NCBI GenBank assembly: GCA_013694695.1
Contig: JACDBX010000107.1
Coordinates: 1-53,294 of the forward strand
Direction of reading: 5' to 3'
Length of the DNA: 53,294 bases
Origin: Gemmatimonadales bacterium
Lineage (GTDB): Bacteria > Gemmatimonadota > Gemmatimonadetes > Gemmatimonadales > GWC2-71-9
Shown here one piece after another: positions 10,506 to 34,787 of the stretch. Within the stretch, counting starts at the first letter, position 1, and the number at the start of each line of letters is the position of its first letter. The translations under genes and the position numbers were made by a program. The notes under the pieces were generated by a model. That model saw nothing but the letters and a program-made list of their open reading frames with translations, made no database searches and was not told the DNA's origin.

Positions 10506-13500
10506 ATGGCCGAGTCGCCTGTTACGCCTCCCGCCGCCGATCCTCCACCGCTCGATCTTGATCATCCCACGCCCCGGCAGCGGCGGAGCCTCCGGTTTCG
10601 GGTGTTTCGGGCGCTGGTGATTGCGCTGGCGACCTTTGGCGGGGCCATCATCGGCTTTGTGGTGACGCTGGCGATCATCGTCGCCGAGGCACAGGTCGGC
10701 CGGTTCATTTTCGCACTGGAGGATATTCTCGCCTTCCGGTGGGAGGTGTTACCCGTACCGCTCTTCGCAGTGGCTGCCTTTCAACTCGCGCGACAGCGGC
10801 CCGGCACGATGGCGTGGGCAACCGTCTCTGGCTTCGGCGGCATGGTGCTCGGAGCCGTGATCGGCGCCGGGGTGGGAAGTGTGGTGCTCGCCGAAGGGGT
10901 GGGGCCGTGGGCCGGCGGCGTGATCGGTGCGGCGGCTGGACTGGTGACCGGCAGCATTGCCGCCCTCCGGATCCGGCATGTCCCGAAGGAACCCATCATC
11001 GCCGCCGGCGCGGGCCTCATCGGGCTGGTCGCCGCTGCGGGGTTTGCCGTCTTCGGCGCCACCAACCTCCTGCATGTGACCCCGCTCGATTTCGGCGAGG
11101 TCGGCGGCGTTCCGCTGCCCGCCCCGGCCGATGTCGATGCTGCGGTGTTCCTGCTGGGCGACGCGGGCGCCGCTGAGGCGGGGACGTCGCCCTTGCTGGA
11201 CGCACTGGGCGCCGACGTCGAGCGATGGTCGGCCGGACTTCGGCGTGATTCCGCCGTCGCGGTGGTGTACCTCGGGGACATCGTTTACCCCGTGGGCGTG
11301 CGCGATCGCGACCATCCGGCGTTCGTGGTCGATTCCACCAGGTTGCGGAGCCAGGTCGACCTCGTCGCGGGGCCCGAGGCGTTGAAGCACAACACCGTCG
11401 GCCTCTTCCTCACCGGCAACCACGACTGGGGGAATGCGGTTGGCGACGTCGGCATCAAGCGCGTCAGGAACCTCCAGGAGCAGTTGCTCGCGGCGCGCGA
11501 GACCGGCCCGCTTGTGGCGCTGATCCCCAATGCGGGAGATCCTGGGCCGATCGTGCGGGACCTGCGTCGCAATGTCCGGGTGATCTTCATCGACACGCAC
11601 TGGTTCCTGCAGGAGCGCTCGGAAGCGATGCACGACCAGTTCTTCGGGCGCCTCCGCAACGCCATCGATGGTGCACGGGACCGCGAGGTGATCATCGTCG
11701 CGCATCATCCGTACTTCTCGGCCGGGCCCCACGGCGCCGTGGTGCCGGGCTACTACAGCGGTGGCCTTGACTACATCCTCAAGCGCACCGGCGCCCTGGT
11801 GCAGGACCTCAACTCGCCGGCGTACGAAGGGCTGCTCGGCAAGCTCCGGCTTGCCTTCGCGGCGAGCGAGAGGCCGCCCCTCGTGTACGCTGGCGGCCAC
11901 GACCATTCGTTGCAGGTGCTCACCGGCGCGGCGGACTTCGACCCGCGCTTCAACCTCGTCAGCGGCGCCGGCAGCAAGGTGTCCGCGATCGCAATGGGCC
12001 CGGGGTTGGTGTGGGGCGGAGAACAACCGGGTTACATGATGCTCGTGTTCCGCAAGGACGATGGCGTCGATCTCTTCGTGGTCGGAGGCGACCGCCAGCA
12101 CCTGACGTGCATCGGGACCGACGACGAGATCCGGAAATGTCGGACCGAGGGCGTCAACGCATTCGAGATCATGTACTCCGCGTCGCTGCTCGGGCCGTCG
12201 AAGCGCCCGCGGGAGCTGACGCCCGTGATTCCCGACAGCCTGCTCCTCCCCGACTCGCTGGCCCCCGGCACGCCATGGTGGACCGCCGAGGGTCCTGTGG
12301 GTGGGCCGATTGCCGCGGAAAAGGATGAGGAGACACTGCGGCCCGCGCCGGTGGCCGTGTCGACCCGGGTGCTGCTCCACAGTCGCGACTCGGCGATGAC
12401 GACATTCGGAAAGAGCTACCGCGCCGGCCCCGTGCGACGGCTCATCGCCGGTGAACTCAACCGGGAGCTCTGGAACACACCGGTCAAGCTGCCGATTCTC
12501 GATCTCGATTCAGTCGGGTCCGGATTGCATCCGCTCAAGATCATCGGTGGCAAGCAGACGGTCGGGCTGCGCTTCGCCGGTCGCGACGGCCTGGAGTATG
12601 AATTCCGCCCGATCGTCAAGAACCCGAGCAAGGTCCTCCCGGCCCCGCTGCGGAACGGTCTTGCCTTCGCAGTGCTTGATGACCAGATGGCGGCGCAATT
12701 CCCGTTTGGCGCCGTGGTGGTGGGCGAACTGCTCGAGGCGGCGGGGATAAGCGCCCCGAAGCCGGTTGCCGTCGTGATGCCGAACGACCAGCGCCTGGGG
12801 AAGTACCGGGCGATGTTCGCCGGTCGCGTGGGCATCCTTGCGCTCAACGCCAATGAGCGTGAGGACGATCGTCCCGGCTTCGGTGGTTACTCCAAGATCA
12901 TCGGCGGCGAGTCACTGGCGGATAAGTTGCGAGACGATCCGTCAGCGACCGTGGACCCGTCGCGCTACCTCCGGAGTCGCCTGGTCGACCTGCTGGTGGG
13001 CGACTGGGACCGGCATGCGGGTCAGTGGCGCTGGGGCAGGCAGATGAAGAACGGCGTGACCGAATGGGACGCGATTCCCGAGGACCGCGATTGGGCGTTC
13101 GTCAGGATTGACGGCCTCGTCGGTGTGATCTCCCGCGCTTTGCTGCCGCGGTACGCCGGGTTCTCCGCGACGTTTCCGCCGATCCACCGGCTCGCCGAAA
13201 CCGCGGCACCCCTCGACCGCCTGGTGATGTCAGGGCTCGACCGTGGCGCGTTCGTGAGCGAGGCCCGACGACTCCAGGGAATCCTGACCGACTCACTCAT
13301 CACCGCCGCGGTATCGACCCTGCCACCGCCGTTCGTCGACCAGCAGGGCGACCGCCTGATCAACGGGCTTCGGTCCCGGCGTGACGACCTGGTTCGCTAC
13401 AGTGAGGACTATTACGAGTACGTGATGCGCACCATCGAGGTGCGGACCCACGCCGGCGTGGACAACGTCGTGACCTTCGAGCGGTCCGGGATCCGCAGGG

Positions 13501-13706
13501 TGCGGGTCACGCTGCGTGAGGGAGGGGAGAAGGGGACGATCCGGTTCCAGCGCGACATCGATCCGGCCCTGACCCGGAACGTCGTGATCCATCTCGACCC
13601 GGCGCGCGACAGGGTGGTCGGCAACCGCAACCTGCCGCTCACGGTGAAGCTCGTCGACGTGAACAAGAAGCGCGACCGTCCCGAGGAGGAGGTCGCGCTT
13701 CGCTGA
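10506..13706 (+). CDS. Membrane-anchored metallophosphoesterase fused to a kinase-like domain
   Basis: A 1066-residue protein. Residues 31-190 hold about five or six hydrophobic segments, several Gly-rich. A calcineurin-type phosphoesterase follows, with GDAG at 218, GDIV at 257, GNHDW at 304, AHHPYF at 399 and GGHDH at 463. After a linker, residues 680-870 resemble a divergent protein-kinase fold. They contain a GGKQTVGLRF strand, a Lys in RPIVKNPSK, a catalytic-loop-like GDWDRHAGQWRW at 832-843 and a DFG-like PEDRDWAF at 858-865. Similar fused proteins in Bacteroidota usually end in a beta barrel, which is absent here. The kinase reading is inference from motifs. It converges on a secreted phosphatase gene. 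Confidence 0.85.
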   Translation: MAESPVTPPAADPPPLDLDHPTPRQRRSLRFRVFRALVIALATFGGAIIGFVVTLAIIVAEAQVGRFIFALEDILAFRWEVLPVPLFAVAAFQLARQRPGTMAWATVSGFGGMVLGAVIGAGVGSVVLAEGVGPWAGGVIGAAAGLVTGSIAALRIRHVPKEPIIAAGAGLIGLVAAAGFAVFGATNLLHVTPLDFGEVGGVPLPAPADVDAAVFLLGDAGAAEAGTSPLLDALGADVERWSAGLRRDSAVAVVYLGDIVYPVGVRDRDHPAFVVDSTRLRSQVDLVAGPEALKHNTVGLFLTGNHDWGNAVGDVGIKRVRNLQEQLLAARETGPLVALIPNAGDPGPIVRDLRRNVRVIFIDTHWFLQERSEAMHDQFFGRLRNAIDGARDREVIIVAHHPYFSAGPHGAVVPGYYSGGLDYILKRTGALVQDLNSPAYEGLLGKLRLAFAASERPPLVYAGGHDHSLQVLTGAADFDPRFNLVSGAGSKVSAIAMGPGLVWGGEQPGYMMLVFRKDDGVDLFVVGGDRQHLTCIGTDDEIRKCRTEGVNAFEIMYSASLLGPSKRPRELTPVIPDSLLLPDSLAPGTPWWTAEGPVGGPIAAEKDEETLRPAPVAVSTRVLLHSRDSAMTTFGKSYRAGPVRRLIAGELNRELWNTPVKLPILDLDSVGSGLHPLKIIGGKQTVGLRFAGRDGLEYEFRPIVKNPSKVLPAPLRNGLAFAVLDDQMAAQFPFGAVVVGELLEAAGISAPKPVAVVMPNDQRLGKYRAMFAGRVGILALNANEREDDRPGFGGYSKIIGGESLADKLRDDPSATVDPSRYLRSRLVDLLVGDWDRHAGQWRWGRQMKNGVTEWDAIPEDRDWAFVRIDGLVGVISRALLPRYAGFSATFPPIHRLAETAAPLDRLVMSGLDRGAFVSEARRLQGILTDSLITAAVSTLPPPFVDQQGDRLINGLRSRRDDLVRYSEDYYEYVMRTIEVRTHAGVDNVVTFERSGIRRVRVTLREGGEKGTIRFQRDIDPALTRNVVIHLDPARDRVVGNRNLPLTVKLVDVNKKRDRPEEEVALR

Positions 13707-13722: not shown

Positions 13723-14706
13723 TCAGGGAGTGGGCGTCGGAGCCTTGTTCTGGATGCAGCTTCCCGCGACCGGATCCCACACCCGGCCGTTCGTATCGAC
13801 GAACGCCGCTGTGTAGCCCTTGTCGCCCAGGGTGAGCTTGAGTACGCCGAAATATCCCTGCAGCCGGTATTGGGAATTGGGCGCCGCGGTGCGCTGGAGG
13901 CCGCGAAGTTCGCCGCCACCCGTCCCCACCACGAACGACGGAATGCCCTTCACGCTGTCCCGCACGCCTTCCGCGTTCATCGGTGCCAGGCGCTCGTAGT
14001 GATGATCGTGCCCGGCGATCACGAGGTCGACCCCACCATCCATCATCGCCTGCCAGGTCGGTGCCATGCGCTCATCGCTGCCGTGCCAGCCCGAGCTGAA
14101 TCGCGGATGATGGAAATACGCCATCGTGCACGCCTTGGTGCTGGTCTTCATCTCGTTCTTGATCCACGTAAGCTGGGCTACCTCATCCGAGCGCGGGAAC
14201 TCGGGGTTGACCACGATCTCGCTGTTGATCACGATCACCTTCCAGGCCCCGACGTCGTAGGAGTAGTACCCGCGCTTCGCCGAGCCGGCGGCGCGCTCGC
14301 CGAAATACTTGTAGTAGGATGCGGCGCCGTTGGTGTGATGCTCGTGGTTGCCCGGCGACGGATGGATGACCTTCATGATGCTTTTCTTCGGGTCGCCCCA
14401 TGACGGCGTGAAGCAGCGCTCGAAGTCCCGTGCGGAGCCGTCGGGATAGGCATTGTCCCCGAGCGTGAAGACGAAGTTCTCGACCCCGGCCACGCTGTCT
14501 GCCTTGATGATGCTGTCGACGATCAGGGCGGTGCGCTCATCGCCGGTCGATCCGCAGGAGGCGATGTCCCCGGCGCCGATCATCACCGCCGCGCCCGCGA
14601 GCGCAACGAGTTCGGCCGGAGCGTCGGCCGGGACCGGTGTGATCTGTGGTCGCGGGGCGCAGGCGGCCGTGAGGATGCCGAGGGCGAGGGCAGCAGTTCG
14701 TCGCAT
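13723..14706 (-). CDS. Secreted metallophosphoesterase, purple-acid-phosphatase-like
   Basis: A 327-residue predicted lipoprotein (ILTAAC, Cys16). It carries the full binuclear-metal motif set: GAGDIASCG, GDNAYPDGS, GNHEHH, YFHHPRFSSGW and AGHDHHYE. Expected to hydrolyse phosphoesters in the periplasm or at the cell surface; substrate unknown. It is the last gene of a minus-strand cassette (DUF4956, beta-propeller, phosphatase) with 40 bases to the preceding gene. It ends 16 bases from the convergent phosphoesterase/kinase-like gene. A TAGATT-like element precedes its start, so it may also have its own promoter. Confidence 0.9.
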   Translation of the reverse strand: MRRTAALALGILTAACAPRPQITPVPADAPAELVALAGAAVMIGAGDIASCGSTGDERTALIVDSIIKADSVAGVENFVFTLGDNAYPDGSARDFERCFTPSWGDPKKSIMKVIHPSPGNHEHHTNGAASYYKYFGERAAGSAKRGYYSYDVGAWKVIVINSEIVVNPEFPRSDEVAQLTWIKNEMKTSTKACTMAYFHHPRFSSGWHGSDERMAPTWQAMMDGGVDLVIAGHDHHYERLAPMNAEGVRDSVKGIPSFVVGTGGGELRGLQRTAAPNSQYRLQGYFGVLKLTLGDKGYTAAFVDTNGRVWDPVAGSCIQNKAPTPTP

Positions 14707-14746: not shown

Positions 14747-15700
14747 CTAGGGCTGTGACGGATCTGTTACACTGTCCTGCACGCCTGCCGCTGGCGCCGC
14801 GGCTTGCCGACCTGGGTGTGGCCAGCGGAAGATAGTGATGCTGGCCGGCGCATCGCCGGCTTCGGCGCTGATCAGCAGCAGGCCGTCGCGGGTGATCGCG
14901 ATCCCCTCGGTGTGGGGGATGTCGGTGGGCACCGGACCAGCTGATACCACTTGTCCGTCGCGGGAGAGCACGATGAGAGCCCGCTGCTGCGCTGTGATCA
15001 GGACGATGTTGCCGGTGAAGGGATCGATCGTAATGTCCGACGGACGCACGTCGTCCCAGTCGTTGCTGGCGATCACGAGGTCAAGCGCGATCGTGATGCG
15101 GGAAACCGGCGGCGGATTGTCGCCGAGTGGCCACCGGTAGATTACCAGCGAGTCCCGCATCGACTTTTCCGGTGTCTTGCAGGCCATCAACAGCGAGTTG
15201 GTCAGTGGATCATGGGCGATGCCCTCGAACTCGCACGCATCGCCGAGCTTGGTGTCGATGACGACGTAGTCGGCGCTCTTGCCGTCCTCCACCTCCCGAA
15301 ACTGGTAGATCTTGCCCTTGCTGGTGAGCATGTAATAGTCGAGCCCGCCGCGGGTTATTCCCTCGAAGTCGCCCTTGACAGGCGTCTCGCCGAGGTTGAA
15401 GCGCTTGATGACCATGCCCGAACGCCAGTCGATCTCGACCAGGTGCGCCCGCTCGTCGCCATGAGCCAGCACGTGATTGCCATCGGGCGCGAGCACGATC
15501 CCCGAAATCTCCTGCATGTCGCGCGGCATTATCCATTTCGCCAGGGGCACGTCGGTCCGCCCGCGAGGGTCGCCGACCTGGTCGGTCAGCCGCCCGACGC
15601 GCGTCGCGGCCGCCGCCGAATCCGCCGCCGCCCTCTTGGCCTTTCCGATTCCGCAACCGGCCGCAAGTACGGCGAGCATCGGGAGCAGCCATGCACGCAT
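14747..15700 (-). CDS. SdiA-regulated-like beta-propeller lipoprotein
   Basis: A 317-residue protein with a clean lipobox (LAAGC, Cys16). Repeating beta-strand blades follow, in the style of the SdiA-regulated/YjiK-like propeller family: EISGIVLAPDGNHVLAHGDE, GDFEGITRGGLDYYMLTSKG, DACEFEGIAHDPLTNSL, IPHTEGIAITRDGLLLISAE. Paired Glu-Gly-Ile strands recur in each blade. The function of the family is unknown; a calcium-binding or esterase-like role is possible. The start at 15700 shares its A with the TGA of the DUF4956 gene, so the two are translationally coupled. Confidence 0.78.
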   Translation of the reverse strand: MRAWLLPMLAVLAAGCGIGKAKRAAADSAAAATRVGRLTDQVGDPRGRTDVPLAKWIMPRDMQEISGIVLAPDGNHVLAHGDERAHLVEIDWRSGMVIKRFNLGETPVKGDFEGITRGGLDYYMLTSKGKIYQFREVEDGKSADYVVIDTKLGDACEFEGIAHDPLTNSLLMACKTPEKSMRDSLVIYRWPLGDNPPPVSRITIALDLVIASNDWDDVRPSDITIDPFTGNIVLITAQQRALIVLSRDGQVVSAGPVPTDIPHTEGIAITRDGLLLISAEAGDAPASITIFRWPHPGRQAAAPAAGVQDSVTDPSQP

Positions 15701-16773
15701 CAATCGGCCTCCTGCTCGGACAGGCTCTCACCCGCCTCGAGACGCACGCCGGGAACGAGCCCGCCGATGCGGCCGCGAACCGCGGTGAGGAACTCATCCT
15801 GGCTCATCGACTTCTTGATCCTGACCAGGTAGATCAGCTCCGACTTCTTCCCCTCCACCGAGACGACCTGGTCGAGTTGCCACCGCTTTACGATGTCATC
15901 GAGCAGCGATTCGGTCAGTCGCTGTGTTTCCGTGACGGCGTCGGTCGTGAGTCGGAGCACAGCATTGAACCGCGTTTTCTTCTTCGCCAGGAGGTCGCGA
16001 ACTCGGTCGAATCGCGCCGCCAGGATGTCGGCCGATTCCGGTGTGAGCGCCAGCACGAGGTCGCGATCGGGAACCTCCGAATCTGTGTCCTGATTGGCGA
16101 GGCTGCTCAGTGGTTCCACCCATTTCGTGGACGACTGCGCCTCCAGGACGTTGCGCCCGAAGTCATAGCGCCATGTGAGGATCACCACGAAGTTGAAGAA
16201 CACCGACAGCAGCGTGGCGATCGGCAGCGCCTGGACGCCGGCTGCGAAGCCGACGGCGATCGCAAGGAAGATGTACACCGTGTCGCGGGCGTCCTTGAGC
16301 GTCGTTCGGAAGCGGACCGCCGCCACCACGCCGGCGAGCGAGAAGGCCAACGCGAGGCTGTCCTGGACGATGATCACGATACCCGTCACCACCACAGGCA
16401 GGATGATCAATGTCTGCACCACCCCCTGGTTGTGGCTGCGACTGTTTCGCGCGGACATGTACACCCACGACACCGGGAGCATCAGGAGTACCGCGCCGAT
16501 CAGCATCATGGCGACGGACGCCATCATCGAGAGCGGGGGCGGCTTGTCCACCGGTGACGAGACCGTCGGACCCTCCGTCAGCCCGTCTTGCAGCAGCTCG
16601 GGAGTTTCCATCCGCACGATCTCGGAGCCCGTGAGGCGGGCGTCGAAGTTGGGCCACGCCCAGTTCACGGCGAAGACCAACAGGCCGAGCAGGAAATAGT
16701 ACGCGAGAAGCCTGCGGATCGGACGGTCGGAACCCAGCGTGAACATGTCGAGCAGCTTGTGGAACAGGCCCAT
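15700..16773 (-). CDS. DUF4956 membrane protein
   Basis: A 357-residue inner-membrane protein with about five helices (roughly 22-39, 83-105, 119-137, 139-153, 166-199). It has the DUF4956 signature RFRTTLKDARDTVYIF at 154-169, preceded by QDSLALAFSLAGVVAA. The soluble C-terminal third is ferredoxin-like in character and ends in an acidic tail. Elsewhere DUF4956 genes often neighbour VTC-type polyphosphate polymerases and CotH-type kinases; here the neighbours are phosphatases and a kinase-like protein. The ATG at 16773 has a GAGG site eight bases upstream. First gene of its operon. Confidence 0.88.
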   Translation of the reverse strand: MGLFHKLLDMFTLGSDRPIRRLLAYYFLLGLLVFAVNWAWPNFDARLTGSEIVRMETPELLQDGLTEGPTVSSPVDKPPPLSMMASVAMMLIGAVLLMLPVSWVYMSARNSRSHNQGVVQTLIILPVVVTGIVIIVQDSLALAFSLAGVVAAVRFRTTLKDARDTVYIFLAIAVGFAAGVQALPIATLLSVFFNFVVILTWRYDFGRNVLEAQSSTKWVEPLSSLANQDTDSEVPDRDLVLALTPESADILAARFDRVRDLLAKKKTRFNAVLRLTTDAVTETQRLTESLLDDIVKRWQLDQVVSVEGKKSELIYLVRIKKSMSQDEFLTAVRGRIGGLVPGVRLEAGESLSEQEAD

Positions 16774-33135: not shown

Positions 33136-34787
33136 TGCTCGCGTCGCTGCGGGTTCGCGATCTGGCAACGATTGCCGACGTGACACTCGAGCTGGGGCCG
33201 GGCCTGAATGTCCTGACCGGTGAGACCGGGGCGGGGAAGTCGATGCTCGTCGACGCGCTCGCGCTCCTGCTTGGCGACCGTGCCGATCGCGCGGTCGTGC
33301 GGCCCGGTGCTTCGCGCGCGGTAATCGAGGGAGTCTTTGACCAGGTCGGCACGGGGGTGAATGCACGCGTCGAGGCCGCCGGTCTCGACGTCCAGGATTC
33401 ACTCGTGATTCGCCGCGAGGTGAGCCGTGCCGGCCCGTCGCGGGCGTGGATCAACGGCTCCCCCACCACGGTCGGGGTGCTGGCCTCGATTGGTGAATCG
33501 CTGTGCGACCTGCACGGCCAGCACCAGACCCTGCAGCTCCTCGATGGGGTGACCCAGCGCACGCTGCTCGATGCGCACGGGAACGCATCGGCCGACGCCG
33601 CAGCTGTTCGGAGTGCGTGGCAGGAGCGCGAACACCTCCGCACAGAACAGGCGACACTCCGCGACCGCCGCGATGAGGCGACGCGTCGTGCCGACTGGCT
33701 GCGCCACGTCATCGAGGAGGTCGACGCCGCGGCGCCCGGGCCCGATGAGGAGGGCGAGCTGGAACAGGAGGCGACACGCCTGGCGCATGCCACGACACTC
33801 GCCGAACACGCCCACGCGATCGTCGACGCGCTCGATGGCGACGACGCATCGACCCGCACCGCCCTCGGTCGCGCTGAGCGCGCGCTCAACGCCCTTGAAC
33901 GCGTCGACCCCGCGGCGTCGGAGTGGCGCACCCTGCTCGACAGCGCGTATGCGCAGCTCGACGAACTCGCCCGGCTCGCGGCCGACTACGCCCGCAACCT
34001 CCGCGACGACCCGGCGCGCCTCGCTCAGCTCGAGCATCGGCTTGACCTGCTTGCGACGCTCCGGCGCAAGCACGGCGACACGCTTGCCGATGTGCTCGCA
34101 ACGCGGGAGAACGCGGCGGCCGAACTCGACCTGATCGATTCCTCGGTGCTCGACCTGAAGGTGCTGGATCGCCGGATTACCAGTGCCACCCACGAACTCG
34201 ACCGGCTTGCTGCGCTGCTGGGCGAGCGACGCGGCGGCGCGGCTTCACGCCTGGCGCGGGCCGTTACCCGCCATCTTCCATCGCTGGGCCTTGCAAGCGG
34301 CGAGTTCACCGTGCGTCTCGACCCGCTTGACGAGCCCGGTCCCGACGGCGCGGAGTCGGTGGTGTTCGAGGTTCGCCTCAATCGCGGCATGGAGATGCGA
34401 CCGCTATCCCGCACCGCGTCTGGTGGAGAACTGTCGCGGCTGATGCTTGCCCTGAAGCTGGTGCTTGCCCGGCACGATCACGTGCCGACTCTCGTGTTTG
34501 ACGAGGTTGACCAGGGGATCGGCGGCGAGGTGGGAATGCAGGTGGGCGTGGCGCTCGCCGGGGTGGCAGCGCAGCATCAGGTTCTCGTGATCACCCATCT
34601 TCCGCAGATCGCGGCCAGGGCTGATCGTCATCTCCAGATCGCGAAGGCCGATCGGGGCGGCGTCGCCACCACCGATGTTGCGGTTCTTCACGGCGAGGAC
34701 CGGGTCATCGAGCTCGCGCGGATGCTCGGCGACGCCGACGACGCTGCCGCCAGAAAGCTCGCCGGATCGCTCCTCGCGGCACGCTAG
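33135..34787 (+). CDS. recN: DNA repair protein RecN
   Basis: SMC-like ATPase for double-strand-break repair. The 550-residue protein has Walker A (LTGETGAGKSMLVDAL near residue 30), a central coiled coil broken by a hinge, the ABC signature ASGGELSRLMLALKLV, and Walker B TLVFDEVDQGIGGEVG. Length is normal. It shares an A with the nadK stop, and is the last gene of the long overlapping block; the next gene converges on it. Confidence 0.96.
   Translation: MLASLRVRDLATIADVTLELGPGLNVLTGETGAGKSMLVDALALLLGDRADRAVVRPGASRAVIEGVFDQVGTGVNARVEAAGLDVQDSLVIRREVSRAGPSRAWINGSPTTVGVLASIGESLCDLHGQHQTLQLLDGVTQRTLLDAHGNASADAAAVRSAWQEREHLRTEQATLRDRRDEATRRADWLRHVIEEVDAAAPGPDEEGELEQEATRLAHATTLAEHAHAIVDALDGDDASTRTALGRAERALNALERVDPAASEWRTLLDSAYAQLDELARLAADYARNLRDDPARLAQLEHRLDLLATLRRKHGDTLADVLATRENAAAELDLIDSSVLDLKVLDRRITSATHELDRLAALLGERRGGAASRLARAVTRHLPSLGLASGEFTVRLDPLDEPGPDGAESVVFEVRLNRGMEMRPLSRTASGGELSRLMLALKLVLARHDHVPTLVFDEVDQGIGGEVGMQVGVALAGVAAQHQVLVITHLPQIAARADRHLQIAKADRGGVATTDVAVLHGEDRVIELARMLGDADDAAARKLAGSLLAAR

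Follow-up and report, generated by a model that had tools for sequence, protein, structure and literature searches.

A predicted membrane-anchored protein of a Gemmatimonadales bacterium joins a purple-acid-phosphatase-like domain to a kinase-like domain

We analyzed a stretch of 53,294 nucleotides from a Gemmatimonadales bacterium (GenBank assembly GCA_013694695.1, contig JACDBX010000107.1, positions 1 to 53,294; hereafter the window), and in particular an open reading frame (ORF) at 10506..13706 on the + strand, which starts with the ATG at 10506, ends with a stop codon at 13706 and encodes 1066 amino acids. The protein consists of five predicted N-terminal helices, a metallophosphoesterase domain of the tartrate-resistant acid phosphatase (TRAP) type and a kinase-like domain, and it has no β-barrel; an Omp85 barrel is encoded nowhere in the whole window. 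An earlier note on this DNA had placed a phosphoesterase and a kinase-like domain on this single chain, and the frame was found where the note had put it, with all the motifs that it quoted. The ORF matched no family at accepted cut-offs in Pfam, NCBIfam or the PDB sequence search with the single protein, and Pfam matches to TraT and CHAD were dismissed as weak and below the cut-off. PHROGs and PADLOC gave no useful match to its kinase-like domain, and no match for the family was found in the phage collection. A chain of the same architecture was found in one of 102 genomes of the same family, belonging to another genus (G076); it has 1044 amino acids, is 59% identical from residue 20 to the end (E = 0), shares the five hydrophobic segments and the C-terminus, and its frame, like that of the window, is free of stops. 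More distant homologues match the C-terminal region with E down to 1e-84 and better. The ORF with its motifs and architecture is far beyond chance.

The phosphatase domain covers residues 200-530 (11103..12095, +, as are all features of the protein given below). A profile built from 39 relatives matched tartrate-resistant acid phosphatase type 5 in the PDB with E of 6e-14, and a Foldseek search with the full-length model found pig purple acid phosphatase (E 1e-11, template modeling (TM) score on the target 0.66-0.69). All five metal-ligand motifs of purple acid phosphatases (GDxG, GDxxY, GNH(D/E), H and GHxH) are present: GDAG with D219 in FLLGDAG, residues 215-221 (11148..11168); GDxxY with D258 and Y261 in YLGDIVY, residues 255-261 (11268..11288), reading GDIVY where most relatives have GDNIY; GNHD with N305 in GNHDW, residues 304-308 (11415..11429); AHHP with H400 and H401 in AHHPYF, residues 399-404 (11700..11717); and GHDH with H465 and H467 in GGHDH, residues 463-467 (11892..11906). 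The window protein itself falls short of PF00149 in the Pfam scan, and its domain is homologous to the PF00149-positive domains of its relatives. The phosphoesterase is thus complete, as had been claimed, and profile and fold now specify its type. In chains from Rufibacter (L075, L079, L083) and Adhaeribacter (L066) and in L073, L094 and L099, several phosphatase ligands are replaced and the kinase-like residues are intact. A Riemerella metallophosphoesterase that had seemed relevant was dropped, as a review lists it as an effector of the type IX secretion system.

The kinase-like domain covers residues 627-975 (12384..13430), and its AlphaFold2 model, computed from 90 sequences, has a predicted local distance difference test score (pLDDT) of 91.4 and a predicted TM-score of 0.91. 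The kinase fold proposed in the earlier note was put to a search of this predicted structure against the PDB, and all of the 17 Foldseek matches at E ≤ 1e-3 were kinases, among them CtkA (1.2e-6), CotH (1.1e-5), HipA (5.9e-5), PI4K-IIα (2.4e-4), Rio2 (3.4e-4) and a bacterial Ser/Thr kinase; Fam20C was a lower match found with the full-length model (E 2.9e-3). The structural elements also follow one another as in kinases. A glycine-rich turn equivalent to the P-loop (GGKQT, residues 681-685, 12546..12560, with the turn at 681-684) connects strands 674-682 and 685-692, and is followed by strand β3 with R701 and K705 (12606..12620), where K705 at the end of the strand is the candidate nucleotide-binding lysine and R701, not K705, is the residue inside the strand of the model. 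D726 (12681..12683), in helix 719-730, is the candidate acidic partner in helix C. After a helix at 818-830 comes the putative catalytic loop DWDRHAGQ (D833-W-D835-R-H-x-x-Q840 within GDWDRHAGQW, residues 832-841; 13002..13025), in which D835 is the candidate catalytic Asp and Q840 occupies the position of the metal-binding Asn, and behind the β7-β8 hairpin (841-858) lies PEDRDWAF (residues 858-865, 13077..13100), with D860 and D862 equivalent to the DFG motif. A C-terminal β subdomain (residues 976-1054, 13431..13667), seen as strands in the models, leads into the barrel in relatives; there, the match to the barrel profile overlaps the final part of the match to the kinase-like profile.

Conservation was counted over 79 domains gathered by whole-domain similarity and hence without motif bias; an earlier count on loci from named genomes was put aside because those loci had been found through kinase motifs. 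R701, K705, D726, D835, D860 and D862 are each kept in 78 of the 79, Q840 in 77 and G681 in 74, so that the DRH and DRD residues, which the earlier note had expected to be conserved across homologues, indeed are. The single exception, L019 (G016), carries NNPTNFER at the key positions and has lost nearly all catalytic residues; this kinase-like/barrel paralogue (ORF 176-2848, +) is likely a pseudokinase. At the sequence level, Pfam gave the window protein no match to any kinase family at E ≤ 1, the kinase profile found no useful match among PDB sequences or in NCBIfam, and CotH was too rare in the relatives for an alignment to be built. Four HipA_C genes are present in the host genome (G000, contigs C4 and C96), and a single contig carries three of them. 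Judged from the model and these residues, the C-terminal half appears to be a member of an undescribed family in the protein-kinase-like superfamily with its predicted active site intact, a view that we hold with about even confidence jointly with the whole explanation given below.

The N-terminal helical module (residues 30-190, 10593..11075) comprises five helices of the glycine-zipper type, predicted from hydropathy to run N-in/C-out and appearing as low-confidence helices in the full-length model. It is homologous to free-standing genes of about 150-220 amino acids that adjoin the phosphatase gene, one copy of which passes the Pfam cut-off for Glycine zipper 2TM. Hydropathy and positive-inside reasoning suggest that the five helices, with the N-terminus inside, hold the chain in the inner membrane with both enzymes on its outer side. 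The two enzymes are parted by a linker (residues 531-626, 12096..12383) that is disordered over most of 549-615, where the pLDDT of the full-length model is below 50, which implies no fixed coupling between them.

Members of the kinase-like family were found in Bacteroidota, Gemmatimonadota, Ignavibacteria, Latescibacteria, KSB1 and others, and we surveyed their architectures in 80 loci from named genomes. In Bacteroidota, phosphatase, kinase-like domain and Omp85 barrel form one chain of about 1190-1390 amino acids. The usual arrangement in Gemmatimonadota, Ignavibacteria, KSB1 and Latescibacteria is a kinase-like/barrel gene, in many cases next to a phosphatase encoded by a gene of its own. 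Rufibacter, Hymenobacter and Adhaeribacter have kinase-like proteins of about 520-580 amino acids without a barrel. The barrel is present on every kinase-like gene in the 40 loci sampled from the class to which the window belongs, and just 12 of these loci have the family's phosphatase gene nearby; a kinase-like/barrel paralogue of the ordinary kind remains in the host genome on contig C42. Nearly all relatives end in an Omp85-type barrel that the window protein lacks, in agreement with the earlier proposal that N-terminal helices have taken its place. Among the closest relatives of both domains are those of G236 and G161 (58 and 52%; 45 and 43%), in which phosphatase, glycine-zipper gene, DUF4956 and kinase-like/barrel gene follow in this order within about 6 kb. 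In the tree, the window protein and G076 are nested in barrel-bearing proteins as sister to G277/G236/G161 with support of 100/99. The separate adjacent genes of the nearest relatives and this nesting argue for a fusion, and the window protein is best read as the probable product of three neighboring genes (glycine-zipper helices, phosphatase and kinase-like) joined with loss of the barrel.

Close downstream of the window gene, on the opposite strand, lies a second metallophosphoesterase gene of a different subfamily (13723..14706, −; Pfam Metallophos 2.6e-11), which the family's own phosphatase profile does not match. Behind it are two conserved neighbors of the family, an SdiA-regulated gene (14747..15703, −; Pfam 5e-11) and a gene for a DUF4956 membrane protein (15700..16773, −; Pfam 1.1e-13), which overlap by 4 bases. 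Clustering of the neighbors in the 80 named loci gave HD-PycTM at 34, SdiA-regulated at 31, PPK1 at 25, SixA at 17, PAP2 at 10 and DUF4956 at 5, and profile counts were slightly higher (SdiA-regulated up to 34, PPK1 25-26, SixA 17-21). At least one of PPK1 (14), DUF4956 (13) and SdiA-regulated (8) was present at 20 of the 40 class loci, which span up to 10 kb, compared with 0 of 20 controls, which were 10-kb stretches drawn almost entirely from the same genomes (Fisher p 4e-5, indicative only because the loci are related to one another). Some PPK1 frames near the family have a CYTH-like N-terminal segment, a weak match below the Pfam cut-off. The commonest neighbor of the kinase-like genes is an HD-domain protein with a C-terminal PycTM domain of the Pycsar effector type, often together with PPK1 and SixA (L031, L036, L042, L051, L106 and about 30 other loci). 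The PycTM domain is best known from phage defense, and its place beside the kinase-like genes looks like a housekeeping setting. Elsewhere in the window, ARAGORN called a tRNA-Asp with the unusual anticodon atc (33613-33709, −), which has no Rfam support and is probably false.

From the computed folds, residue conservation, architectures and neighborhood we infer a membrane topology, catalysis, a phosphate donor and substrates as follows. The window gene may encode a membrane-anchored, periplasm-facing protein with two enzymes, a TRAP-type phosphatase and a kinase-like domain, working in a polyphosphate-linked envelope system, and to this explanation we give an even chance. Three clustered genes, for a glycine-zipper membrane protein, a phosphatase and a kinase-like/Omp85 barrel protein, would have fused and the barrel would have been lost, shifting the anchoring from the outer-membrane barrel to the N-terminal helices, which most likely lie in the inner membrane. 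The kinase-like domain would transfer a phosphate (or nucleotide) group onto an envelope substrate, the phosphatase would hydrolyze phosphoesters or phosphoanhydrides at the same place, and both would serve a polyphosphate-linked envelope process together with DUF4956, the SdiA-regulated protein and PPK1. Polyphosphate would be an attractive donor because the periplasm is without ATP, and we name it as speculation. The broader proposition that widespread envelope kinases, partnered by a TRAP-type phosphatase, phosphorylate targets in the outer membrane or the periplasm with polyphosphate or another non-ATP donor seems to us improbable.

Several observations weigh against this explanation. To our knowledge, ATP is not expected in the periplasm. 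The host's PPK1 is on another contig (C54), away from the window gene, and a shared neighborhood is no proof of shared chemistry. Membrane placement and topology are deduced from hydropathy and from positive-inside reasoning. Free-standing versions of this helical module (L149, L151, L154) have apparent cleavable signal peptides as judged by eye, raising the possibility that in some lineages it is located in the outer membrane. The TM-scores of the kinase matches are moderate (0.3-0.5). Membership of FAM20 or CotH, whose elements the earlier note had found similar, is not supported by sequence: Pfam gave no match, and a comparison of profile hidden Markov models with HipA, pairing GDWDRHxxQ with GNxDxHxKN of HipA, was non-significant at a probability of 0.5%. 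Finally, 7 of 40 single chains, the seven named above, combine altered metal ligands in the phosphatase with intact kinase residues, in a set that was fetched through kinase motifs and in which the reverse case, loss of the kinase residues, is under-sampled.

Four other explanations can be considered. The kinase fold may be kept as a scaffold or sensor that binds nucleotide or phosphate and regulates the phosphatase or the barrel, as a pseudokinase; a periplasm without ATP, a DxD that departs from the canonical DFG, a Q at the usual Asn position, and the clearly degenerate L019 are in line with this, but the retention of K705, D835, D860, D862, R701 and D726 in all domains except that one is an active-site pattern rather than a relic, making this explanation unlikely. 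Somewhat harder to sustain is a writer-eraser switch in which the kinase-like domain adds phosphate to a target and the phosphatase removes it from the same target. Both active sites are complete at the level of motifs in the window protein, the two domains recur side by side or fused in different phyla, and the long flexible linker would permit such a switch. However, chains that bear both are commonplace in Bacteroidota and say nothing about a shared substrate, so that the "new kind of switch" of the earlier note describes nothing special to the window protein; moreover, most class loci have no family phosphatase gene nearby, and the seven chains with changed phosphatase ligands make obligate writing and erasing of one mark unlikely. 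Doubtful to a similar degree is a kinase fold with other chemistry, such as AMPylation, polyphosphate-dependent transfer, or phosphorylation of a lipid or glycan rather than a protein: the lipid kinase PI4K-IIα stands among the fold neighbors besides protein kinases and the gene neighborhood points to polyphosphate, but these are indirect pointers to a donor or acceptor. That two genes were joined by an assembly chimera or a gene-call artefact, as a draft of 195 contigs and the separate genes in most of the class might suggest, is barely credible given the independent G076 chain with the same ends and no stops.

The two-enzyme protein that we favor resembles several known systems in part. Heinz and Lithgow (2014; PMC4104836) described a "Metallo" subfamily of Omp85 in which a PF00149 domain stands N-terminal to the barrel; the main text terms this domain a metalloprotease, a term search of it found neither phosphatase nor phosphoesterase, and its passages on the subfamily describe no kinase-like domain. 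The Bacteroidota relatives, with a PF00149-type domain and an Omp85 barrel, are like this subfamily, whereas the window protein has the homologous phosphoesterase domain without a C-terminal barrel. With the kinases CotH, CtkA, HipA, PI4K-IIα and Fam20C it shares the kinase-like fold and the DRHxxQ/D-x-D layout of the active site, but no significant sequence or profile relation, and the present family is linked to a phosphatase and usually to a barrel. Its phosphatase domain has all the metal-ligand motifs and the fold of ACP5 and other purple acid phosphatases, but is bacterial, apparently membrane-bound and part of a kinase-like chain, the domain being fused or adjacent in relatives. AceK, PFKFB and PPIP5K are bifunctional kinase/phosphatases that are cytosolic and have known substrates. 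They, too, carry both activities (here predicted) on one chain, but their domains are unrelated to those of the window protein.

No paper on the kinase-like domain was found within the open-access literature, and the family is apparently undescribed and the barrel-less fusion apparently unusual. A kinase-fold domain whose active-site residues are conserved appears to have been hidden in proteins labeled hypothetical, as in the RefSeq entry of a Hymenobacter relative ("hypothetical protein"), or metalloprotease-Omp85. The fusion of three partners in the window protein is an argument that they work together, and without a barrel the enzyme may be easier to purify. If the domain is active, it would phosphorylate on the periplasmic side of these envelopes, in a compartment without ATP, and if the polyphosphate reading is true, it would answer how kinase-fold enzymes can work there. 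The family points to widespread candidate phosphate chemistry in the cell envelope and provides a concrete set of genes for its study.

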